Source: Orbilia blumenaviensis (taxonomy: Eukaryota; Ascomycota; Orbiliomycetes; Orbiliales; Orbiliaceae). From it: DNA of 64,000 bases. The position numbers and the translations under genes were made by a program. Under the pieces are notes generated by a model. The model searched no databases, was not told the DNA's origin, and saw only the letters and a list, made by a program, of their open reading frames with translations. The stretch covers positions 2,108,001-2,172,000 of the forward strand of contig JAVHNS010000003.1 in assembly GCA_036872755.1 (NCBI GenBank). The letters run 5' to 3'. Positions 30,822 through 64,000 of this stretch are shown in pieces; the first letter of the stretch is position 1, and every line of letters starts with the position of its first letter.

Positions 30822-33800
30822 TTATCCTGATCCCAGGAGCTTCTTCCCGAGCAATAGCCTGCTCTTCTTCCGGATGCTGTCATTGCCCATTAGCATTTGC
30901 CTCAAACATAAAACGCGGAGCGCGTATCTTACCTCTCCTCGGACTCCCCTGCAATCCCATCCCTCGCCCTTCTATCGTTGGTCAGGAGAGACAGATGCCT
31001 TCCAAGCGTATTATGGAAGATCCCATGTTGTTGTTGCTGCTGCTGCTGCTAAAATCACAAAATCATATTAGCATTTCATTATAGCTCTCGATCCAGAGTA
31101 TAAAAACATACCCTCTCATCCCCATCCCGAGATCCAGGGGCCGAACTCCCCCCATCATCAGTACTCTGCTCGCTCGAATTCCTATGCGCACTAGCCGAGC
31201 TATAGGACCGGCTCGAGCGAACACTACCCGCTCTAGTCCTCGATCCAGACCGCGTGGAGGGTCGTTGGGAAGCAGGTCGCTGGGAAAGCGGCAGCCCCGA
31301 AGAGTTACTCCTATCCCGCTTTGAAGACCCGAGTACCGGGTTACTAACACTGGCCACATGTCCCGATCGTATAGATTCTTCATAAGAACTCGGCAAATAT
31401 GATGAAATGTCGCTGTCGCTGCCTAATGGAGTCGCAGCAGCGCTCGTAGAACTGGCGACTAGGTTCCGTAGGTTTGCGCCTTTGAGCAAATTCGGCCGTC
31501 GGTGGAACATCTTGTGCTCGATAATCGCGCCAGTGTGAGATATCAAAGCGCGGATGACGTCTACACGATCGCCGTTAGCCTTCTACCAGATAACAATAAT
31601 CATCTTCTTTTGGGATACGGGGAAATACATACCCTTCTTCAACCTCACCAACAAATCCAAATTACTCCACGTCTTATTCCTATACTCCAGCGTCGGCATG
31701 CGGAACACAAACTGGTGAATATCCTCAATATTCCTATCCCCCTTGCCCTTATAACTCAAGCAAAGCACCACACTGGGGATCTTGATATACGCCAGCGTCA
31801 TATAATTCGATGCACGACTGATCATCTGCGAAATCTCATCCGTCTTCTCCTTCTGCTGTCCCTTCCCGTCTGTTTGGGCGGTAATACTATTGTTCCGACC
31901 CCAAACGCCGGTCTTCTTGGCTCCAGAGGTCACCGATGCGTGTTCCGAATTGCCAACGCTATTGACACGGATGAACACCGGCGACGACGGTCTGCCATTG
32001 ACAGCGCTGCTCTCTGAAGACGTTCTCGGTGCGCTATCATCAGCCGCTTTCTTTGCCAGCGAGGGCAAAGACTCAAATGACTGCTGCCGTCTCATCGTGA
32101 ACCGCGGCTTCAACGACCATTTATCCGAATCTACATTGGCAGTAGTCGGCCGCTGAGTCTTTGTTCCGCCGGAAGTATGTGGTCTCTTTTCTGAAGTCAT
32201 GGTGGGTAACAATCGGTCACCTAACATTCCAGCATCTGGCTGAGGCTGAGGCGATTCAGCCGACAGCTTTCGTTCTAGCTGCTCGCGGATCACATTGTCA
32301 GACTCAGATTCGGAGTCACTACCATCCGGAATATTCGACAACGAGGGCTTCATCATAAACGGCGAGAACCCTTCCGAAGAATTAGAATTCACACCGGGGA
32401 AGATAAACTCGAATAGCTTCTGGCCAGCGTCGTAATCCAGCTGTACCAACAAGGGGAACAAGTTGACTTCAAAGTGATCCATCACCGGAATACCAGCAAT
32501 GGCTTCAAGCATATACCAATACACCCGAAGAATCTTGTTCTGATGCGCCTTGTTCGCCTCAAGCGTTCCCTCAAGGTATGGAGAAATCATCGCCGGGTAA
32601 GTCGCATCTGGCAGCCGGTTTACACCTTGCAACATCTCAACCTCCACTGTGTTGAAGTTCGATCCGTCGCTGTTGTCCGTTCGTTCGTAGCAGGCGTTCG
32701 TCAACTTAAGGTCTACGAACGGTTGATCCTTGTTTAGCAGGAGGTTTGCAATAATCTCGCCAGCACTGAGATACCATCTGATCAATCCTGTAGTCTGTTG
32801 ACGTTCGTCATACTTGCGCTGCACAGACATGATAGATTTCATCGTGAAGAATAGCTCATCTTCACATGTGGCAAGATCCTTCTCCAGACATAATCGGTCG
32901 AGCCATCCCTGCTTATCAAGGTTCCTGGCATTGATCTGGAAGTGTGTTTTGATTTCCTCCAACTGCTGGATTCGGCTTTGAAGCGAGGTAATGATATCCT
33001 CTGCTCCCTTAAGATCACTGAAGTCCGATGCCAGGATGATCTTTTCCAGCCTCTCGTTCCTACTCTTCTCCAACGGCTCAGAGTATAGTAACAAATCCAA
33101 CACAATGATATAAAGCGTATAATACTCTGCCGAATTTGTAGAAACCTCCATCCTGTCGAACGTTGCCCAGACATGGTCCACCCTGGGTTCGTTCTCCACT
33201 AGACTAGCGTTATGCTCTCCACTGCCAGTATCCAAACCCTCATCGATCAGCTTCAACCGCAGAGAGTTATGCTTGTCCGCACGTAACGTTGTTGAAGTCT
33301 TCTTAACCACACGTGAGAATCCATGAGGGTTAATCTCAAACAGCAACATATTCTCCATAGGTACCCAAGGTGGCCACGAAGTATTCTTGACGCAACCGTA
33401 CTGATTGTTCGAGTGAAGATTATGTAGCGGTGATGTAAAGTCCTTATGTCGAGCCACAAACGCCTGCGCATTCTCCAACTCCAACGCAAAACGTCGTTGA
33501 ACGAGACCAGAAACCGGGTCGCTGATCCTCTCTTTGTCCATAACAGAGATAACGGTAAGCTGCATACTCTGCGAAGTAACGAGCAGCGCCGAGCTCTTGT
33601 TCTTGTCGCTCTGCATTTGAATCTGCGGTGCTATCAGACGCACGTGATAGGAGTTGAGAGGTATGTACTCCTCCGAAATACCCTTCTTGAGATCCGTCGG
33701 GTCCGCTGGCGCACCGCCCATTGACATTCTCCGGCTTCGCGGTCGGGCATCGTCGTCTGCCGCCACAACCTTCGCCTTGTCGTTCAGTAGCGCCTCGATC

Positions 33801-36800
33801 CTTGATTGAACAACTACACTCTCCTCAGTGTCCTGAACCCCGTTTTCCCAGACACCCCGAAGACTAGCCCTATCTGGGTCGAGTTCGTGACTCTGTTTCT
33901 TCTCCCTATCCATCTGTTGCTCATCGACCAGGTCAAGTATAAACTTCACGGCCCGTCTGGACATGTAGTACACAAAACCTCTTCTCTGGTTAACTTGGTG
34001 TATATATCTCAGAATAATATTTCTCAAATCATTGCTCCACTTCGCCTGCATGTTGTGAACGATGAAACGATTATTAAAGTCATCATCCCACTTCGTATAC
34101 GGCTCCGCTGCATCCATCATCGGAATATCGTCCTCCGACTGAGTATCAGCACTCGATCCGTCGTCATCGATCGCAGACTCGTCGAGGTATTTAGACATAT
34201 TCCGTAGCATGTTCTGCAGAAACTTGATTTTATCCATAAGCACCGAGCTCTGTTGAATGAGACGCTCCGATTCCTTGGTAAGTTTTTGATTGTCCTTATC
34301 CTGCTTGATGCTTTCGGCGAGGGTATCGAGGAGCTCTTTGTTCTTGCGAAGCTGGGAATGGACCTTTTCCATACGCGATTGGATCAACTCGCACTGTATC
34401 TCCCTAGGATCGTTGTTCTGGTTCATCATACAATCGTGTGTGGCCTCGTGTCCGAATGGGCTCCTGCCTTTTCTACCTGTCGAGCCCTCACCGCTGGAAT
34501 GGTCTGTCTGCCTGAAATACGTGAACCGCGGCGTAGACGCCAACGGCATAATCTTTGTCGAAGGACTATATCTCGTTGGGTGAATCCAATCCAATTCCAC
34601 AAAGTCGTCGACATCAATCCAGTCCGTGTCGCCATCAGAAATCGAGAAGTTTGAAGAATCGCCGAGGGGTGTTGCACTTTCGTTGATTGGCACATCGAAC
34701 CCGTTCCAGTCCTTAAAATCATCCGAAGCCGAATTTGCAAGAGTGGCGGATACAGCTCTGATATCTGCGGTTGTGAAATCCAACTCTGCTTGATTGATAC
34801 TCATGTTCGTACTTCTTCGATCGACATTGAACCCCTTGATCTTGATCACGCTTTCCTCCTTCCTTTGATGCGCGTCGAGAGTGAAGCGATGCAATTTGAC
34901 CTTGAGACCGGTAGCTGTGATGGTATCTGTAGGTACCCCACCACCAGCCTCACCTTTGTGTTCCTCCGCATCCTTATGCCTATATATATGGCTCAAGTAC
35001 AAGGGTGATAATAGGAGCTTATATTTGATAGTTGCCAGATGTCTGCCAAACTTCTTGGTCGACTTTTCGATTCCTGGGAAGAGGCGGCCCTGTCGGATAG
35101 GGAGCGACATAACGCCCGAGAACAAACCGACCCAGTCGTAGAAGTGTGTGAATACTCTTGGGGTAAGATGGATGGTATTATAGGCTGATGCCATCTTACT
35201 ACCCGTCCAGTCGTGATTCACCGGCGCTATCATTGATATTGAAAGATGGATGTGGTGGCTTCTGAAGCCTCTAAATGCATCGTACACCTTTTATTGCTCA
35301 GTTAGTATTTTGATTGAATGGATATATAATTGCGATATGAACTTACTTCGTTCGAATTCTGCTGCAAGGCCCTCGCAGCCTCTGGTGTTCGTAAAGTGAT
35401 GTTATAATGCGGTATGAAAGCAAATGACCTCTGCCGAACGATCCAATCTGGCTCTTGACTCGTCTCCTGTTCGAAGACCAAACCAAGCTGCCATCTCACA
35501 CCACCAGTGGCCTTAAGAATGACCTTCTTGAAGACAGCAATGGTCTTATTATAGCTATCATTGCTCATAAAGCTTTGATCATCCTCACCCGTAGTCGAAG
35601 TGTCTTCAAAGATCTGAAGGGCCTGCTGGCTAAAGTCTGGTATGGCTAGGAAGTATTCTTTGCTTTCAACGATGAGGAAGTTTAGTGGCTTATCGTCGTT
35701 AGCAATGTAGCATCGGACGTCTCCTCGCCAGCACTTCACGAAACCAGCACCATTGCCAGTGATCACGTAGGGATCTCTTGAACCCTTCAGTGTAACTTGG
35801 ACATCTCCATCACCCTTCCATGCCCACCGGATACGCGAATGTATTGAAAGTCGGAGCTTGTCCCAGAATCCAATCTTTTCGGACGGGTCCACATGTGGTT
35901 TCGTGAACGTCTCGAACACCATCATCATATCTTGGATAGCGGGTTGGTATGATGTTCCCCAGGTAGCTCGCGTGGTGTATGGAGTGTTTATAGTGATATC
36001 GATGTCGGAATAGGTCTTGACCGGCGACACGGTTCTGTGGACATCTACTGCAAACCCCTTCTGCTTCTTTCCTTCCTTATCTTCTGGCGGGACGATATCT
36101 ACCCGAACATGGAGTAACGAGTTCTTATCTCTTAACTCTTCCGCGATCACAAAGTCTGTTTCGAGCGACCAGGCGGGTATCCGTGGCGATAGTCCAGATT
36201 TCATCTGAGGAATATGTAGAAGGGGCAAGGGATAGTCTCTCAGGTTGATACGTGCTTCTCCCATGTTGAGTTTGATGTGCATCGGGACCAGTAACGAGAA
36301 TTTTGTGTCTTCTGGCAAACCCTTCCCAACTTTATGCAAGAACTTTGGAAGATGTTCAAGCGGGAACGACGGTTTATCTAGTGTTAGGTCAAAGTCGACG
36401 ATGGAAGCGATTGCAAGGGCCGGACGGGCCGGGATCTCTAAAATCCTCTCTGTTTCCTCGACATCTGGCGGCAAATCGTCTTCGCCCATAAATTTTCGCC
36501 TCATAGCTTGAATCCTCGTGCGAGTCTTGGGAACTGCCATCTTCATCTTTCTGATCCAAACCTGCGAGTTGTGCTCTTGTAGTTTCCACCACGCCTTATT
36601 GATGGATATACTTGCCTCGCACGATGGCCCTTGTGCATGATCAAGGTTGTAACGCATTTTCCGATGGCCTCTTGAGTCTGTGGTAGGAGACCCTCCGTCA
36701 CCGTCAGCCCCATCATTATCCGTCACCACGCTATTAGCATCAGAAGCGTTCACCCCATTCGGCATGGGCCTGGAAGGGTGTGTCGTTCGAGTCGACTGCC

Positions 36801-39800
36801 GTCTGTTCTTAGACTCAATAACTTTAGCGACTTTGGCATCATACGCTTCTTCTCGGGCCAGACGATTCTTTTGCTCGCTAAGACCTATCCTGTATATCAT
36901 CGCCAGTTTGCTTTCAAAAAGATCGTCTTCTAGTTCAAACTGCAATGCTTTAGCTTTGATCGATATCCTCGGTAGAATCTTCGGTCCTTCAGCTTTCTTC
37001 TCAAGGATGAAATCATTCGTGCCTGATTTGAACCGGTGGAATAGCTGTTGGGATGCTTTGGCAGCGTTGACTAGGTTATCTGTGACTTTGTACAGGACAA
37101 GTTGATGAGGAATCGCAATACGTATCGCTTCCATTGTCAGGTCAAGCGAGCTGCGCTTTGAAAATACTTTATGACTCTCATACCGGCCTTCTCGCATATC
37201 ACCACGGAAATGCTTCGCGCTGATGACCCTTGCCCAGCAATTACCGAGTTTCGGGCTGGTGACGTAGAACCTGATATTTCGGGCTTTGAGATAAGGGAAT
37301 CCCCAACGCTGTCTCCCTGCGTCCAGATGATAGATATCCAACATGACCTTAGGATTCTTTGCGAAGTCTCCCTTGACCTTGACATGGCGAATTCGGATAT
37401 CTACACTGACAAATTCCTCCTGCTTCATCGGGCTCTCTACCAAATCCAGCCCATCGAATGTTGGACTTGGGAGGAACTGTTCTGTAGGTGATGTGAAACG
37501 TTTCGTAGTCTTGACAGAACGGAAATCTCCAAATGCATCTTTCAGCACCTGCGCCGCGATCAAGACTGAGTAGTGACGGAGTAGAGAGTATTGTAGGAAT
37601 AAAGTCTTGGTGTGAGATGTTATGAGAAGCGTCGGGCCATCCTGATCTGTAATTGACGAGAGCGCTACCTCGAAATGTGGTAAAGCGCACAGCGGGTCTG
37701 CATCCCAAGTGTCCGCGGAATCAACAGCAAATCCCTCCAATCCATGAATGTGGAAAGATAGCTTTCGACCGTCTGTTGGATTTTTAGACGGCCGTGGCCC
37801 TTGAAGTGGTATCTTCTCATCCATACCGATAGCTCTGGATGTCCTCCGCTTAGGATGACTCTTTTCTCGAGATTTGCTGATGACCTGAGACTTGTATTCT
37901 AAAGACCACGAGTCCATCTGAATCGCTGCACCGCGCACATCTTCCGATATTTGTTCGTCCTTCCCAGCTACCTCGAAGCTAAAATCCTTGCCATCAATCT
38001 TGAACTGGACGAGCCACTGTGGAATGCTTCGCAGAAACGATGGTTTTTCACCGTAAAGATTAGGCGACGATTTTTCGGGGACAAAATCGCGCTGAAACTG
38101 CTTCACCATCTGCTTGATTCCTTGAACGATTTCTGTACGGACCATACGAGTGGTACAAGACTCGATTTCGCAAGTACCTGCGAGACGGACCTCAGGTGAC
38201 GCATCTAGCTGACCTTTGATCTCGAGAGTTTCTAGTTGGAAGAGATCATGTCTTTCACCTCCAGCAGCGCGGTAGAAGAGCCGCTGGGTAGCGATACGTA
38301 GTGAAGTGGTCAAGACATAATGGTTTTGGCTTGTTGTTACGTGGGAAGATTCGATTTCATGAGATGCTGAAGAGATGCTGAAAATTAACATATCTGTGAG
38401 AGGAGGATTTTTAGGATTAGACTTGTCGAAGGCCGGCAGTAGGACCCTAACGACTGGCTCGTGGACTGAGAATTTAATGTTTGTTTTAGGTAAGAGGCGG
38501 GATATCAGTTGCTGCGGACCACCGAAGCCATGGTGGTGTCGGGGCTTTGGTTTCCTCTGTTTGAAGAGATTAACAACTATGGGAAGGTGTTTAGGCTCAA
38601 GGTCAACTGATGGAGACGTTACAACGATGCTTGCATTGACAACATTCGAGTTACGGTCTGCTTCAGGGCATTCAGCAAGTTCAATGACTTTTGATGGAAG
38701 TGTCATCTTTGAGGTCATAGTAACCATGGGTACGTAGAGCAACTGGTCTACTTTCCCCTTCTGGTCGTCAATCTTGAATGCCAGGGAGATTGCTGCTAAT
38801 AGAGCTTGATGGGCAATGTCGTTTGGAGAGAAGTCCCTATAAGAGTTAGTGAAAAGAAACCAAACGTACAGATTTCGGTAGGGGTCTTACATTCGATGTG
38901 CCGGACTGTCTTGTTCTAGTTTATGAAGGTCCAGTCCCAGCTCCTTGAGCGACATTGTCGCAATAAGAGGCTTTCCAGAGGGCCTTATATCGTTGGCAAC
39001 CTTTGATATTTCTAAAATCGCCACATTTGCCTGAACCTCATGCAAACCGCTGATGATGGAAGAAAAGATATCCTTGGATTCAGTGACGATTTCGACCAAC
39101 CGCTCTGTCCGGCTCCCTGGCATTGACATCTCACCCATAATGGAGCCAAGCGAGAGATTCCGTTTGTGATTAAGCGGTCGTTGCGGCCTCGTCTGTTTCT
39201 GAATATTGTCACGGAAGCTGGATATCTCGTCCAACGGGATTCGTAATTTTCCAATTTTCATATCTATTGAGACGTCTTTAAGAACCTGGTCCTTCTCCTC
39301 CAGCACACCACCGATGTTCAGACTGATAGTATCCGTAAGTAGAACCGGCTTCCCGCCTTGAGGTGTCAGGAGAACGCTTCGGCAACCGAACACACATTCG
39401 AACGGATGTCGTCCAGAATCCGCTTCTTCGGTTCCCTCGCAAGAGCTGAAAGTACTGTGCGACCTAGAGTCCTTCCGAGTAATTATCGACGCCGAAACAG
39501 CACCAATCTGGATTTTCCCAGCATGCCGAACTTCGAATGTAGTATTGTTAAAAATAACATCTACCATCCTAATCCAGCCTACGTATCGTCGAAACAAGTG
39601 GAGAACCTTCCGACAGCGTTCCACCAGCCGTTTGGTTTCCTCAACCTGTCTCCTCGTCCGTTGTTTGAATATGTCATCCCCGCCATCCTTCAAGAATTCC
39701 AGCAGATCCTCGGAACTTCGTACAGGTTTCGCCTTAGGGTCGATGCTTTCGTCTTCCTCATGAGGTTTGCCATTCGCCACTTTCCCAGGTTTAGGAGGTA

Positions 39801-40104
39801 ACTCGAATTTCGGCTTTGGATTGAAGGATATCGTCGAATCTCGGATAACAAAACTGATCCATGTCGGCTGTGAAAAAGTTGGCCTGTGAAGGATAATCCC
39901 CGCTCTAACAATGTTTATGTCGACGCCACCGCTGGAGAATTGTATGCCTCGAATGGACAGGTATCCGAATCGCTGTATCGAAACCCCGGTTATGATGCGC
40001 AGGACGGCGAAGAATAGGAAGGAACAGAGGTAAAATATAACGACGAGTCCAAGGAGGGAGGATAACGTCAGCGACGACGTAAACATAGCGGCTCGTTCTA
40101 TCAT
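30822..40104 (-). CDS. FMP27: Fmp27/BLTP2 (Hobbit/SABRE) bridge-like lipid transfer protein
   Basis: Six minus-strand exons: 38891-40104, 35347-38836, 31633-35287, 31112-31560, 30933-31048 and 30822-30876. All phases agree and give about 2,992 residues, in the size class of filamentous-fungal Fmp27. An N-terminal transmembrane anchor (about 8-37, LGLVVIFYLCSFLFFAVLRI) should insert in the ER. The chain then carries the family hallmarks: the GFWDK region (about residue 1,394), the WPPW region (SWPPWVPMENMLLFEINPHG, about residue 2,205) and the conserved C-terminal NKTWSNLDLLVRLKK-DVIRALISH, which is split exactly by intron 3. Such proteins form long hydrophobic-groove rods carrying phospholipids at ER-plasma membrane contacts. 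The C-terminus is Ser/Arg-rich, with a Gln run encoded at the start of exon 5, where several in-frame CAG triplets could serve as acceptors. Two Met codons (1 and 7) could start translation. Confidence 0.95.
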
Positions 40105-41171
40105 GGTTTTGTAGGGGTTGTGTTGGTTGGTGGGTATCCCGTTATCTGGAGGTCGTGTGATGAGAACCTGCCCTGGTCCCCGTCAAAAGACGACGGCACG
40201 AGCCGTCGAAGGGCTGGAAGGTATCGCGATTCGGAGGGACGACGTTTACGGGTACCGATGGAGAGTATGGGCGAGATAGTATGGGACCAGGACCCGAGAC
40301 AGGATGCCGAAAGAGGGAGTCGACCTGCGAAATAGCTCGCGTTGTGCCACCAGATCCACGGTGTCGATTGGGCCTGGTCATCGAATCGAGATCGAGATCG
40401 GAGGACGATTGGCTGCAGCAGCACCTGGACTGCCCGAGATCAGAACTGAGAAAACAAACGATACCTAATTATAATCGGTGCCAACAGGAAACGATATAAA
40501 GTTAGCCAAGTGCTTTAAGAAGTAGGTCGTTCGTACTTTAAGGAGTTTAGTCGTCAGGTACACATCACCAAGTACCTGCTTAGTGGTAAAATACACTAGT
40601 GCTTAGATCGGTACCACCGGGCTGGGCTAGGCAGAGAGTCTCTACTTACTCGAGCACCCAATAGTGGTATCGAAGGACGGAAGAAGAAGACTGATAAATA
40701 AGCTACCTGGCTCGGTAGGTAGGTAAATAAATAAATAAGTACTTAAGGAGATGTTAGGAATGTTATGAACGGGAAGAACAAAAGATGCGAGTTGAAAGGG
40801 CCAAGTTGCTGTGCTCCCCTCCAACAGCGTGTCTGTTTAGTGGTTCAGAAGAAGCATGGCAGAGTTACCCGCAGTATATAGTATGAGGTATGATCTGAAT
40901 CCGGTTAAAGAGTGTAAGTCAGGTCCCGGGGTGGAGGCAGTTAATACCTTTAATTGCAACCCCCAATAAAAGAAAGGATAAGTCGGCACAGCAGAATCAA
41001 CCTCGACAGCCTTTGAGGTCTAGGTACCTAGTTAGGGCATATACAACCAAAGCACCCAAAGGTATTTTTTTATCGAAGTACTTTGTAAGTACTTCAGCAG
41101 GTTGAGGTAGACTTGCACTTCCCGGCGATATATAACTTAGCAGCAGCAGCAGTTAGGAGTAACTACTAGGT

Positions 41172-57638: not shown

Positions 57639-60600
57639 TCAAGTCCGACCAGGCGAGGAATCTGTATCCAATTCGCTGCCTTCTGATTCTTCCTGTTCAA
57701 ATACCCCCTCCGCATTGCGTGTTTCTCGCATATGGGGGACGGGTAGGGCAGCCTCATCTTCGATCAGGTCCTCTGGCGAGTATTTATATATGAAACCTCC
57801 CGCGTCTGGTGAACCGAAGTTGACGGAAATCTCTAGGCCAACCAAATGGTTGTTGATGCTAACCGCTGGATATATTTGGCCTCCAACGTCTTGGGAAAAA
57901 ACGCCTAGGGGTTGAAGCCCCGGGTTAGTGGGAAATGTATATTTTTGGAAGCCATGAGTCTTCTGGAGCTAGCACTTACCTAGGAATACCCCATTCACAG
58001 TGAAGAATGCAACCCCTCGTTGTAGGCTGACCCCACAGCCGACGACGTCACCAATATCAAAAGGTTGACGATATATCTCAATTATTTCGCCGTTTATGTA
58101 AGACACTCCGTCGTCGCTGTGGATTCCCCATGATCGAGGATGCCACCCCAAATAATAATCCAGGTCCATTTCCTCATCGCAGAAACCAAAAGAAACAAGG
58201 CTATGTACGCACTCTTGCATTAATGATTAAGTAAATTTCGTATGCAAGCATTAGTTCATACCTTCCGTCCAAGTTTTCAACCATTCCTTTGCTACTAATA
58301 GTGATCTCATAGTAGAACACGTCGTCGCCCCCAACATCGGAGAGATTGCCTTGGAAAGGAATACAAAAATTCGCTCGTGCAACCGATTGCCCAGAAGTGC
58401 TTTTAATCCCGGTGTCTATTTGTTATCCAATCTAAGGTTAGTTCACCAAATTTGTAAATATTTTTGAATGAATACTGCAAGCGACATACCATCATCTATC
58501 GAGATTCCCTTGTGGTCGGCTGTTAATTTGATTCTCTCATTCTTATCAAACTCATTCCACTTGGTCGGGGCGTTTTGCGCGGTGTAAATACCACTGGGGG
58601 GCTCGGCCTGGCGTAGAGTAAGAAGATTCTTGATTTCTTCATGACCGTAGCTCTCAGCGATTTCAATTGGAAGCCAGTTATTTATGTCTCTAATTGATGG
58701 ATCGACGCCCTCTCCAAGTATCCTTCTAACGATATATTCGTCTCCCCTGGAGATTGCCATGTGCAGGGCCCTAATACAACAAGACGGTAAGTTTTCTTTT
58801 GACCGTAGGCTCTCCAGGACCATGTCGAAAATTTCCAAATTTCCCGTAAGAGTAGCCCAAGCTAGGGCATTCTTGCCCTGGCCATCCATAATACTTGCAT
58901 CTGCCCCATATTCAAGCAGAGCCGTAGTTATATCAATTTTATTGTTTGCGACAGCTGTTATCAATGGGGTCTTGTGTTCCTGGTTCCGATTATTGGGGTT
59001 AATCCCAGAGCGTATAATTTGTGTGATAACATCAGCCGATTCTGATAGCGCCACTGCCCTTTCTAAGCCTCTTTCCCCGATCTGGTGCTTTTCATCCTTT
59101 ATGTATGCGCTCTCCACATCTAGCAAATGTGCTAAAAGGCTTAATGAATTAGAGTCAAGGGCTACCTCTAAACTGGACTTGATCTCAGGTTTGTTAGGGT
59201 TTTTTAAGACCAAATCTGCACCGTGCTTGCGAAGGAGGCTATAAATATCAATTTCCCCAACCTTGCACGCGAGTTGAATGGGTAAGTCCTTTCCTTCTTC
59301 TGTCTTTCGCGGATCGACTTCATTGTTCAACAAAATCTTTATGACGGCTAGATTTCTGGCTCCTATGGCTGCGTGAAGAGCAGAAATGTGCTTACCCCCA
59401 AACTTATGTATATCACCCCCTTTTTGTATCAAAGATTCGAGAATTTCAGGATCGCCATGTTGTGCCGCCGCTTGTATCGGTGTAATGAATTCTTCCTTGC
59501 AAAAGTTTACATCAACTCCTTCTTGCATCAGTAAAAGTTCTGTAATAGCATTGTGCCGTTTCTTGATGCAAGCCGACAGTGCGGTCCCAAACTTTCCACC
59601 GAACGCATTAATGTTCGGCTTTCTCTCTAAAATAAGCTTGACTATTTCAGAGTTTCCAGATGAAGCTGCTGCTTGGAGAGCAGAATGGTACTTGCCACCG
59701 TATGCATACAGATCCGCATTCCGAGTCAACAGAGCACCCACAAAGTCTTCAGAGCCCTTGCGTGCGGCGTAAGTTAAAGGAGTCCCTTTACTCTCTGAAA
59801 CATGGTTGATATCCGCATCGATGTGATGGGTAATATAATCAAAAATTGAGACTGACTGGTGGGTGATTGTGAAGTGTAGAGGCGTCATTCCAAGAGAATC
59901 TACCTGGTTAATATCAGCCTTGTGAGAAATTAGTAGCTTAAACGTAGCGATAGAATCCCCTATCGTGGCATAATGGCACGGTGTCCAGCCCTTCTTATCT
60001 TTGCCATTTACCAGTCCGTTGTGGTTGATAAGTATTTCCAGGACCTCTTCTTGATCAGTTTGCGCGGCAAAAGACATTGGCGTGGCGCCAGAATTGTTGC
60101 AGGCATTGGGATCTGCTCCAGCCCTTAGCAAGGCTAGGGTTATCGGAGCTGAATCATAAGCCCCATGCAAAGCGGTCCATCCATTCAAGTTCTTCGCGTT
60201 CACAAAGATCTTGGGCTCTCCTCCTTGAAGCAGCTTCAAAACTATCTCTTTATAGCCGTCATATGCGGCGATATAGAGTGGACTTTTTTCCTCCTTGGAC
60301 TGAATATTCCTGTTTGCGCCTTCGTTTATCAACAACTCACAGACAGGAAGATTGTTGTATATGACCGCTTTGTGTAGAGCCGTTTCCCCATATTCATCTT
60401 GCGCATTGATATCTGCCCCTCCTTTTAGTAAAATTGTCATGACTGTAAGCATATCATCGTCCCAAGTTGTCGCTAGGATCAAAGGGTGGTTCCCTAACTC
60501 ATCTCTATCGCAACAGTCTTCACCAGCGTGCGCAAGAAGTCGAACAATTTCCAAGTTCTTCTTTTTGAGCGCTGTATGGATGAGGGACACTTTACTTTCG

Positions 60601-63600
60601 TATCTGTCTTCGCTTCGAGATCGAGGTCCGCCGGCGAGGAGTTCTTCGACATAGAGAGGGTTGCCTCGTTTCACCGCGAGCATTAGAGGCGTTTCTCCAT
60701 GTTCATTCGCGATCCTTGCATTATCAGACTGGCTTTGTAAGATTTTGATTACCGCCAGTGACCCTGTCTGCATTGCTAAGTGATGAGGGGTATTGCCTTT
60801 TTTATCAAAGACCGTAACTTCCGCTTTCCGCCGCACCAGAGCTTCGAGAATGTCGCTAAACCCCCCATAGGCGGCGAATGATACCACCGTCCACATTTCA
60901 TCCGTGGTCGAGTCTATTGGGAACCCAGAATTTAAGAGTTCGAGTAATACCTCTTTATGCCCTTGGGAAGCGGCTAGATGCAAAGCGTTTCTGCTTCCCT
61001 CGTCTTTTGATATACCCTGACAGATTGAAGTATCCCCATCTAGAGTTTCTTTGATAGCTTCGAGTAAAATCTTCACAACTCTCACATGGCCATTCGACGC
61101 CGCAATTCGGAGTGCAGCGTGTAAAACGCCTTGAAAAATTGATAGCGTGCCCTCTTTGCCACTAAGCTTCCCTTCTTCCCGGCCAAGAGACTTTTCACGT
61201 CTGCCGTCTCCTTTGTTTCGACTATTACTTTGTCTAATTCTATCTGGAGTTCTTCTTCTCTCAAGTTTTGGTCGCAGAGGGGTACTCGCGGCTTTGAACT
61301 CAGAGATCAGTTCTTGAACAACGAACCAATGTCCATGAGAAGCAGCTATCTCAATAGGAGTAGGGTTTCTCTTGGAAATGCTAAGGTCGGTTTGATGGCC
61401 CAGCGACTTAATGAATAACAACACTGAGTCTACTTGCCCAGTAGCGGCAGCTGCGCAGAGGGCAGGATAGCAATTTTCGGACCCTGGGCTATCGTCTCCA
61501 AGCAGCAGTTGTGCTATTTTTGTGAAGCCAAATTTGGATGCTGTCGACAAGAGCTCACATTCCGCATCATGGAAGTCACTCCTTGCTGGACGGAGTGAGA
61601 CTAAAAATTCGACAACATCTTCGTGACCAGATTCCACCGCCGATTTCAAAGCGATGTGGAGATTTTGGCTCGGCTCTGCCGCCCAAAATTCTGGAGTCGC
61701 TGGCCTCAATTGGAATAAAAGCTGAATGGCTGACTTCATACCGCTTCCTGCCATGAGCTTCACCAGACCCACGCAGGCTTCGACCGGAAGCTCCAGGATA
61801 TCAATCTTATTTTGTGAAAGTAAAAATAACACTATATTTTCATGGCCAGATGTTGCGGCCAGGGAAAGGGCCTTTGCCGATTTTATTCCGGATGTCTCCA
61901 GCAACTTTACAATCTCAAGATGGCCATGTTGACAGGCAACCTCTAATGCTTCTGTCAACTCAATGTTTTCATCGGCAAGTTTTCCGTCTTCAGAGGTTGT
62001 TGGCTCCTCATCTATCTGCTCTTCCTCACTGTTGTTGCTTCCGAGTTCCTGATTTGTAGTTTCATCAGTAGATCCTCCGTATCCCCTCAGAGGTGCACCC
62101 TCTGATGACATTATGGGTGGACTCTGGACTGCTCGAAGTTGAACTAAGGATATGAGATTCACAAGGCCATATCTTGCTGCAAGCTTTAACGGACTATCCA
62201 GAATTGGCGATTTCAGAGTGGAGTTATTGAATAATGAGTGCAGTTCTGACCAGAGAACCAACAGCTCTTTGTCTTCAAAAAGCCTCTCTAGGACAGTAGG
62301 GCGTTCTGCCACCGGATCTGCTACAGATTTCGTATCCTCGACCGAGGACTCTAGGTTGGGGGATGTGTTCGTATTGTCGTCCTGGTGGCCTTCGTCGCTT
62401 TCGGTACCATCGTGGGTGCCCGTGTCCTGGCTCAGGCCGCCGTGGCTCTCGGAGTTCAAAGGCTCTTCGAATCCAGCTTTGAAGTGTTGCGGCCAGTAAT
62501 TAACCACATATTCTAAAAGCTCTAAAGAGATATCGGAGCTTAGATGGGGTAACAACGTTTCCGTAGGGCTGAGGTAGTCTCCTACGCCTGAAATCAAACG
62601 GATGACGGTGGGATGCTCCTTTACTAGCTTGAGGTAGTCGAAGCATGTCTGGACTATCTCTTTGTGAAAGCTAACGTTTGATTGTGGATCACTATTCAGG
62701 CCCATCCGCATGAGAAAGTCGCGAAGAGACGAGTGAGCCAAATGGATCTCATCTCTAACCAGACTTGTAGTACCAGGGAATATCTGGTTCACATCTCCGC
62801 TAATGTTCCAAGGGCAATGTTCACAAAGGTTTTCTAAATCAACGCCATTGAAGGTCATTGCTAACACCACGGCTAGCTCATTCTGCTTGAGAGGACGAAA
62901 GGAATGTGCCAACCACCCCAATGCTGTGGTAGCCCATTTTTGGTCGGCATAAAATTTCTTTTTCATAATATTTTCCGGAGGGTGGTGCTGCGCAGGAGAC
63001 AAAATCTTTTCGTAGAACTCTGTGACAGTTTTCGGAATCGACTGTACTAAAGAACGTATTGCGAATGTAGTCGACCGTGTATCCGGGTTCTCTAAGTGAA
63101 GCAAGCGATTATGCGCAAGCAAAAAATCCGGCTTGTCCGAAGTAATTTTCGTGTAGACGTCCTCCTTAAGCTTTCCCCATATAGCATTCGTATATGTGAG
63201 AGCAGAAATCCGCCTGTCGACCATACTATTGACCGCTTCGTCCATGTCACTCTCCTCTCCTAGTACGATTATGTAGCTATTTCTGGTCTCGTTTCCAGCC
63301 TCAGCTAAGCTATCCCCTTTCTTTTGATGAAAATCCTCATAGCTAGGATCAGCGGTGACTACAATCTTTATCGTGGTCATGTGGGGACCACCAATTGACA
63401 ATATCGAATCCAACATCTCGAGAACTGATTTAGGGCCAGTGGCACATTCGTTGATGTTTGCAATAACCATATAAGTGGGCGCAGTAGACCAGAAGCTGCG
63501 AATCAGAGTACGAAAGAAAATAGCGAGATCATACTGCGTATAGGATCCCTTAGATTGTAAATTCGAAAGGTGTGGTAGCACTTTCGCGTGAATAGAAGGG

Positions 63601-64000
63601 TTTTCCAAAATCATCTGTCTTATGAGAGATCCCAACATTGATGAAATCGACGTCTGGTCCATGACTGCTTTATTGAAGGCGAATTGTAGGACTATGGAGC
63701 CAGCCTCGTTGAGGTGGAGGGCATATAGTATATGCGTTGATATAATTGACACTCCTGAGCCGGGTTCCCCAACGATAGCGAGGATGCTGGCTATCTTTGC
63801 TGAATGCCAGTAATTGTACTGGCTGGTTTTGAAAACCCACGACATAGAGCTATTCTCCACCGAGGAGTAGAGCCTTAAAGGGGGCCGAAAGTGATGCAAG
63901 CCAGATATGAAGGCCCCCAATTCAGGGCCGTAGGTTCCCACTTCTATCCGTAGGATGGTCTGATTAGTTTTTTGATATTGAAATCGAGGATTACGAGACC
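57639..64000 (-). CDS. NLR-like STAND protein: degenerate NACHT, about 33 ankyrin repeats, C-terminal SPRY (5' end outside window)
   Basis: Minus-strand exons seen: 58490-63959, 58282-58415, 57980-58211 and 57639-57904. A CTAATCAG acceptor at 63960 shows that at least one upstream exon lies beyond the right edge. The NACHT-like region begins with GEPGSGVS (63747-63770), then YMVIANINEC (Walker B position), KIVVTADP, and the winged-helix-type WLAHSFRPLKQNELAVVLA and HSSLRDFL, the order typical of fungal STAND proteins. The Walker A Lys, both Walker B acids and the TSRP-type Arg are all missing. After an acidic low-complexity linker come about 33 ankyrin repeats (for example TALHKAVIYNNLPVCELLINEGAN). 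Three small exons then encode a SPRY domain (FYYEITI, GWHPRSWGIHSDDG, GDVVGCGVSL, FFTVNGVFLG). The 58282/58211 junction is uncertain: a GTTGAA donor with CAAGAG acceptor is the only pairing I found that keeps frame and fits SPRY. Probable intracellular recognition or scaffold protein. Confidence 0.9.

Follow-up and report, generated by a model that had tools for sequence, protein, structure and literature searches.

The usual description of NOD-like receptors (NLRs) is that of ATP/ADP switches, and in fungi the dependence on the P-loop has been analysed by mutation in PLP-1 and NWD2 (PMC12881547). Fungal proteins of the STAND class (signal transduction ATPases with numerous domains) with noncanonical P-loops are already known as recurrent (Dyrka et al. 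2014, PMC4986451). Protease genes lie in clusters with about 80% of fungal gasdermin genes, S8 protease genes with about 63%, and many of the gasdermin-linked proteases bear ankyrin, TPR or WD40 repeats (PMC10197012); HET-Q1 (278 amino acids) loses 40 C-terminal residues when the S8 protease HET-Q2 cleaves it at Phe238 (PMC10989679). Here, we analyse a window of 64,000 nucleotides (contig C3:2108001-2172000) from Orbilia blumenaviensis, an ascomycete of the Orbiliales that belongs to the nematode-trapping group of fungi and has a genome of 42.46 Mb in 23 contigs. At the right edge of this window lies an NLR-like gene (public TWF730_006805, protein P0001, minus strand) that extends past the edge and that, as our results support well, encodes a conserved pseudo-NTPase (nucleoside triphosphatase) of the STAND/NACHT class. 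The features that bear on its nucleotide site are these:

63747..63770, minus strand: P-loop GEPGSGVS, Lys replaced by Val, Gly and Ser kept (translation, alignment)
63444..63467, minus strand: Walker B VIANINEC, first Asp replaced by Ala, second Asp by Asn, Glu kept (translation, alignment)
63345..63359, minus strand: sensor motif VTADP, the arginine of TSR gone (translation, alignment)
62733..62735, minus strand: winged-helix His in LAHSSLRDFL, kept (conserved in relatives)
63354..63848, minus strand: NPHP3_N (NACHT-type) nucleotide-binding domain (PF24883, 79.0 bits in the genome scan, profile positions 2-162 of 164)

In P-loop NTPases, the P-loop Lys and the first Walker B Asp are the chief phosphate and magnesium contacts. 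Since these main residues are gone from the window NLR, it is most likely no longer an ATP/ADP switch and would have lost nucleotide binding. A first-pass annotation of the window, made from its letters, had already read the three altered motifs in a right-edge STAND protein with NACHT layout; the minus-strand translation bears out the motifs, and the NPHP3_N profile, which matches the protein at 77 bits (cut-off 24.8) over positions 2-162 of 164, bears out the layout. The protein has neither the GxxxxGK[ST] P-loop of NPHP3_N NTPases nor, with VIANINEC, the Walker B consensus hhhhD[GAS]hDE (PMC12258605). The word "comprehensively" in that annotation's description of the degenerate site was slightly too strong: the protein lacks Lys, Asp and Arg but still has the Gly and Ser of the P-loop, the Glu of Walker B and the His of the winged helix.

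An AlphaFold2 model (predicted local distance difference test, 77; predicted template modelling score, 0.72) places GEPGSGVS at the expected position of a P-loop, after core strand 40-45 and before helix 52-66, VIANINEC on core strand 144-149, and VTADP at the end of strand 179-185. An intact P-loop elsewhere, which the first-pass annotation had named as the finding that would undo it, is ruled out, because the profile alignment and the structure model both put the loop at GEPGSGVS and a search for GK[ST] across the whole 2,148 amino acids of P0001 gave zero occurrences. The winged helix, earlier called clear, follows the nucleotide-binding core in the model (hairpin 380-389), with VIA-align matches spanning model residues 14-405, but the Pfam scan of the NLR lists no winged-helix family. 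The folding alignment has the winged-helix His in 18 of its 20 rows. As modelled, the core and winged helix are predicted to keep an Apaf-1/NRC-like fold.

The loss of the site is shared by the relatives in the gene's own clade, which came from alignment-based searches. The clade comprises the window gene (P0001), its closest paralogue on contig C1 (P0034; 46% identity in NACHT plus winged helix and 43% in the large exon), TWF718_003070 of O. javanica (P0003; 42-44% identity to the window gene and to the C1 paralogue) and P0035 of A. entomopaga (about 70% identity to the C1 copy), the protein model of which begins after the P-loop. With GEPGSGVS in the window gene, GEIGSGVS in the C1 paralogue and GESGSGMS in O. 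javanica, none of the three members with a readable P-loop retains Lys, and all four lack the first Walker B Asp (VIANINEC, AIKRADEC, IIANIDDC and VVRRVDEC in P0001, P0034, P0003 and P0035). Conservation of the same substitutions in sister species had been named as a check. The loss of Lys recurs in every readable member and that of the first Asp in all four; the residues in place of Lys are Val, Val and Met; the Val codon is GTG in one O. blumenaviensis copy and GTC in the other. Among 37 columns conserved in the other NACHT domains of the genome, the three readable members keep 23, keep eight partly and lose six, namely Trp24, Lys33, Asp130, Ala131, Ser165 and Arg166, the last two standing where the local alignments end (an Arg close by is visible by eye in P0003).

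The window gene and the C1 paralogue have diverged to saturation at silent sites (pS 0.78, pN 0.397; NACHT segment, dN 0.52 and dS 1.74), and their large exons are both open, where 100 neutral simulations run to the same identity gave at least 38 stops. Saturated silent sites, far fewer amino-acid changes and open frames therefore argue for a conserved pseudo-NTPase and against decay. That the gene is a decaying pseudogene is scarcely credible: the loss of three motifs speaks for it, but the gene model runs open for 2,267 codons, its nine introns are all GT-AG, and the C1 copy and the proteins of O. javanica and A. entomopaga are likewise long and open. Frame-breaking decay was looked for in the gene model and none was found, and the earlier preference for selection over random decay is upheld by the recurrent losses of Lys and Asp in these open frames. 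It is quite improbable that the NLR retains a modified nucleotide switch, with nucleotide held by the P-loop backbone, the Ser, the acidic Walker B residue and the winged-helix His; the P-loop Gly and Ser are invariant in the readable members and the His in all four, but Lys has given way to a hydrophobic residue wherever it can be read, with the first Asp lost alongside.

In a FastTree tree, the clade joins next with two other degenerate fungal proteins, a grouping that may be long-branch attraction. The first homology search with the NLR protein returned itself and one weak match and missed the C1 paralogue, and absence from that search therefore means little. A PDB sequence search with the NACHT piece gave nothing, and a PDB profile search with a three-row alignment (A3) gave ankyrin-repeat chains in its best 60 of 506 matches.

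To place this loss among the NACHT domains of the genome, 134 NPHP3_N places were taken from the genome scan, fragments included; 94 loci were aligned, 86 of them with a readable P-loop, and 19 further loci were read from short stretches, giving 105 P-loops. Lys is found in 84 of the 86 readable aligned loci (the window gene and its C1 paralogue both have Val instead), and in place in 17 of the 19 short stretches, which also include one Asn (C18:784 kb) and one displaced Lys (C11:1112.8 kb). The loss of Lys in the window NLR is beyond chance, because 101 of the 105 P-loops keep Lys in place (one displaced, three without). When 112 NACHT domains were compared (89 from this genome, 23 database proteins; 106 readable P-loops), the first Walker B Asp was missing from all six domains without Lys and from two more that have the Lys. 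Three of the six lie outside the clade and depend on weak automatic alignments: P0037 (Metarhizium album), P0011 (Fusarium longipes) and P0006 (Xylariales sp.), ankyrin proteins in which the NPHP3_N P-loop and Walker B are apparently degenerate. These weak alignments suggest that the NTPase site may have been lost repeatedly among fungal ankyrin proteins.

Two of the short-stretch loci deserve description in their own right. At C18:784360-784425 and 784050-784140 (L124, L136), an NPHP3_N locus has the P-loop GASGYHNA and FIIING at the expected Walker B place, and stands outside the clade of the window gene as far as seen. At C11:1112491-1112931 (minus strand), an NPHP3_N match has the noncanonical P-loop KTPWAGNKM and, like the window gene, a divergent Peptidase_S8, here about 5 kb off (C11:1117655-1118438, plus strand). 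NPHP3_N and S8 matches are spaced by 6.6-6.9 kb at C1:2866321/2873285 and C5:2584923/2592433, where the P-loops are intact.

We modelled the NLR gene with ten exons, nine GT-AG introns and 2,267 codons, running from 65170 to 57639 (window numbering continued beyond the right edge here and below). Its large exon (63943-58490) has 1,818 codons, in place of the 1,823 first given.

57639..63943, minus strand: NLR exons 7-10, with NACHT, winged helix, ankyrin and SPRY (gene model)
64059-65170, beyond the right edge, minus strand: NLR exons 1-6 (gene model)
58598..61955, minus strand: ankyrin repeat array (PF12796; limits approximate, by eye)
57639..58415, minus strand: C-terminal SPRY, exons 8-10 with two introns (PF00622, 58.8 bits)

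The domain order is thus an N-terminal region, NPHP3_N/NACHT, winged helix, ankyrin repeats and SPRY, and the ankyrin array (PF12796, 397.8 bits in 14 stretches) provides the C-terminal repeat sensor of fungal NLRs. The N-terminal region, without any match in the Pfam scan of the protein, is common to the NLR and the C1 paralogue (30% identity over 145 residues). The public annotation and the C1 paralogue agree that the residues between exons 6 and 7 are an intron, and by eye the exon 7 acceptor has the same position in the paralogue; the query for the protein Pfam scan, the first homology search and the own-genome search carried these extra residues. The public model P0001 (2,148 amino acids) has a shorter N-terminus and is identical to the ten-exon model from its residue 11 on; its start, MALLVRIIN, lies in another frame than the model exons at 64292-65170. 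The upstream exons, with RPIIFLTDDISCQF, are matched in the DNA of the C1 paralogue (by eye), and the true N-terminus is probably longer than in the public model. Elsewhere in the window, the minus strand of 31583-40182 holds three long open frames (1235, 1194 and 431 amino acids), placed almost end to end.

Beyond the window's edge, the NLR gene is part of a block of three genes, the other two being:

C3:2174042-2174902 = 66042-66902, minus strand: 286-codon gene (open frame upstream of the NLR, same direction)
C3:2176074-2179382 = 68074-71382, plus strand: ankyrin-Peptidase_S8 (subtilase) gene (open frames, divergent to the NLR)

A second copy of the block stands beside the C1 paralogue with order and orientation kept. 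When the whole genome was searched with the 286-amino-acid protein, the ankyrin part and the S8 part, each query gave a single clear further site, and all three sites are there:

C1:612529-613356: counterpart of the 286-amino-acid protein (61-62% identity)
C1:614037-615062: counterpart of the ankyrin part of the subtilase (38% identity, one TAG inside)
C1:616549-617247: counterpart of the S8 part (55% identity)

The C3 subtilase has Asp, His and Ser motifs that we assign, by eye, as the catalytic ones of subtilases; in the C1 subtilase the Ser motif is present, the only motif read there. On contig C5, a distant 286-like gene (33-35%, in two pieces) stands just upstream of an NLR-like gene, which ranks directly after C1 when the genome is searched with the window NLR. 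Weaker relatives of the 286-amino-acid protein occur at C17:331799-332416 (minus strand, E 0.019), about 5.5 kb from an NPHP3_N match at C17:337868, and at C6:694267-694521 (minus strand, E 0.0044).

On C3, an S8 protease gene lies within 10 kb of the small gene, as in gasdermin-Q2L clusters (PMC10197012, PMC10989679). Both copies of the 286-amino-acid protein have a Phe (243) in a Pro/Asp-rich stretch, followed by an acidic tail of 43 residues. The parallel with HET-Q1 in size, neighbour and Phe243 is suggestive only. Matches of the protein to galectin-3 (best E 0.046) and to an InhA-like MAM domain (E 0.051) were dismissed as noise.

Because fungal gasdermin genes mostly cluster with S8 proteases, we propose by analogy, and with no more than moderate confidence, that the NLR would serve, independently of ATP, as sensor, clamp or scaffold in a death or defence module executed by the subtilase. 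Its ankyrin-SPRY part would sense or hold a ligand or partner; the NLR would restrain or license the subtilase through a nucleotide-independent change or mere tethering; and the subtilase would cleave an executor, plausibly the 286-amino-acid protein, in a cell-death or defence response. We infer both the order of action and the 286-amino-acid protein as substrate. A more specific form, in which the three genes make a pyroptosis-like cassette with the ATP-free NLR as receptor or clamp for an ankyrin-subtilase that cleaves a gasdermin-like 286-amino-acid executor, is less probable and tentative.

The NLR could instead be a decoy or dominant-negative partner that tunes a canonical NLR encoded elsewhere, and the genome holds candidates for the latter: 11 of the 14 SPRY matches sit 3.4-5.2 kb downstream of a same-strand NPHP3_N match (for example C3:140593-145051 and C6:1759615-1764134), and nine of these 11 tandem loci keep the Lys. 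Their arrangement points to an NPHP3_N-ankyrin-SPRY family, the ankyrin part being putative at most loci. In two plant pairs, moreover, the pair is inactivated by mutating the P-loop of the helper and not by mutating that of the sensor (PMC9528088). We nevertheless find the decoy very improbable, since the conserved neighbours are the 286-codon gene and the protease, with no second NLR inside the three-gene block; given these neighbours, a regulator or sensor acting on a linked executor seems to us likelier than a decoy on its own.

Several observations weigh against the proposed regulator of a linked subtilase. As to the site itself, the winged-helix His and the P-loop Ser are kept, as is an acidic residue where Walker B has its Glu, a P-loop without Lys could still weakly hold nucleotide, Foldseek TM-scores are modest (best match Apaf-1, TM 0.43 by query), and the plant pair Pik needs both P-loops (PMC9528088). 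As to the block, the NLR-like relative on C5 has a 286-like gene yet keeps its P-loop Lys (GPPDYGKS), and no S8 match was found near it; the TAG in the C1 ankyrin match may be an intron or a broken frame; searches of PDB sequences, Pfam, NCBIfam and PADLOC gave nothing above noise for the 286-amino-acid protein, which leaves a gasdermin identity unsupported; and the linkage, seen in a single genome, could be the chance survival of an old block duplication. The last point belongs to a further explanation, which we hold unlikely: an ankyrin-SPRY scaffold with a fossil NACHT fold, unconnected to its neighbours, in a block that is an old segmental duplication. Repeats and SPRY are as conserved as NACHT among the window gene, C1 and O. 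javanica (ankyrin 43-45%, SPRY 51-55%, NACHT 45-48%), and ankyrin-STAND scaffolds such as TANC exist, TANC itself being predicted to keep its Walker motifs (PMC5533708). However, NACHT and winged helix drift no faster than the repeats, the linkage of the block outlasts silent-site saturation, and the C5 relative, too, has a 286-like gene beside it.

A natural lineage that lacks the nucleotide site while keeping the fold under constraint offers a test of an NLR without nucleotide, and the linked protease and small conserved gene are concrete candidate partners. As far as the literature was searched, near-complete loss of the site conserved through a paralogue and other species, together with a linked block, is new; no title on NLRs in Orbilia or nematode-trapping fungi was among the matches listed, and no paper naming O. 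blumenaviensis was found.

In comparison with known systems, the window NLR resembles fungal NACHT-ankyrin NLRs (PF24883) in its Pfam profile, its nucleotide-binding and winged-helix fold and its ankyrin array, but it lacks their P-loop Lys, first Walker B Asp and sensor Arg, and it has a C-terminal SPRY and an N-terminal region unmatched in Pfam. Plant NLR pairs such as RGA5, RRS1 and NARY are similar in being linked genes of which one partner tolerates a defective NTPase motif; there, however, the partner is an NLR, whereas here it is a protease, and the P-loop of NARY itself is canonical (PMC9528088, PMC12405136). In NWD2/HET-S and other fungal NLR-effector pairs, receptor and executor genes are adjacent (PMC9815663, PMC4986451), as they would be here with a putative executor, but the P-loop that was examined by mutation in NWD2 and PLP-1 (PMC12881547) has been lost naturally in the window NLR. 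HET-Q1/HET-Q2 and the gasdermin-Q2L clusters share with the block an ankyrin-bearing S8 protease beside a gene of about 280 codons (HET-Q1, 278 amino acids; here 286), and differ from it in that the block has a pseudo-NTPase NLR as third gene and a 286-amino-acid protein without detected gasdermin homology. Finally, the survey of Dyrka et al. (2014; PMC4986451) screened for single-residue changes at four P-loop positions, whereas in the window NLR the loss extends to Walker B and sensor, is traced through a paralogue and other species, and is tied to a block of neighbouring genes.
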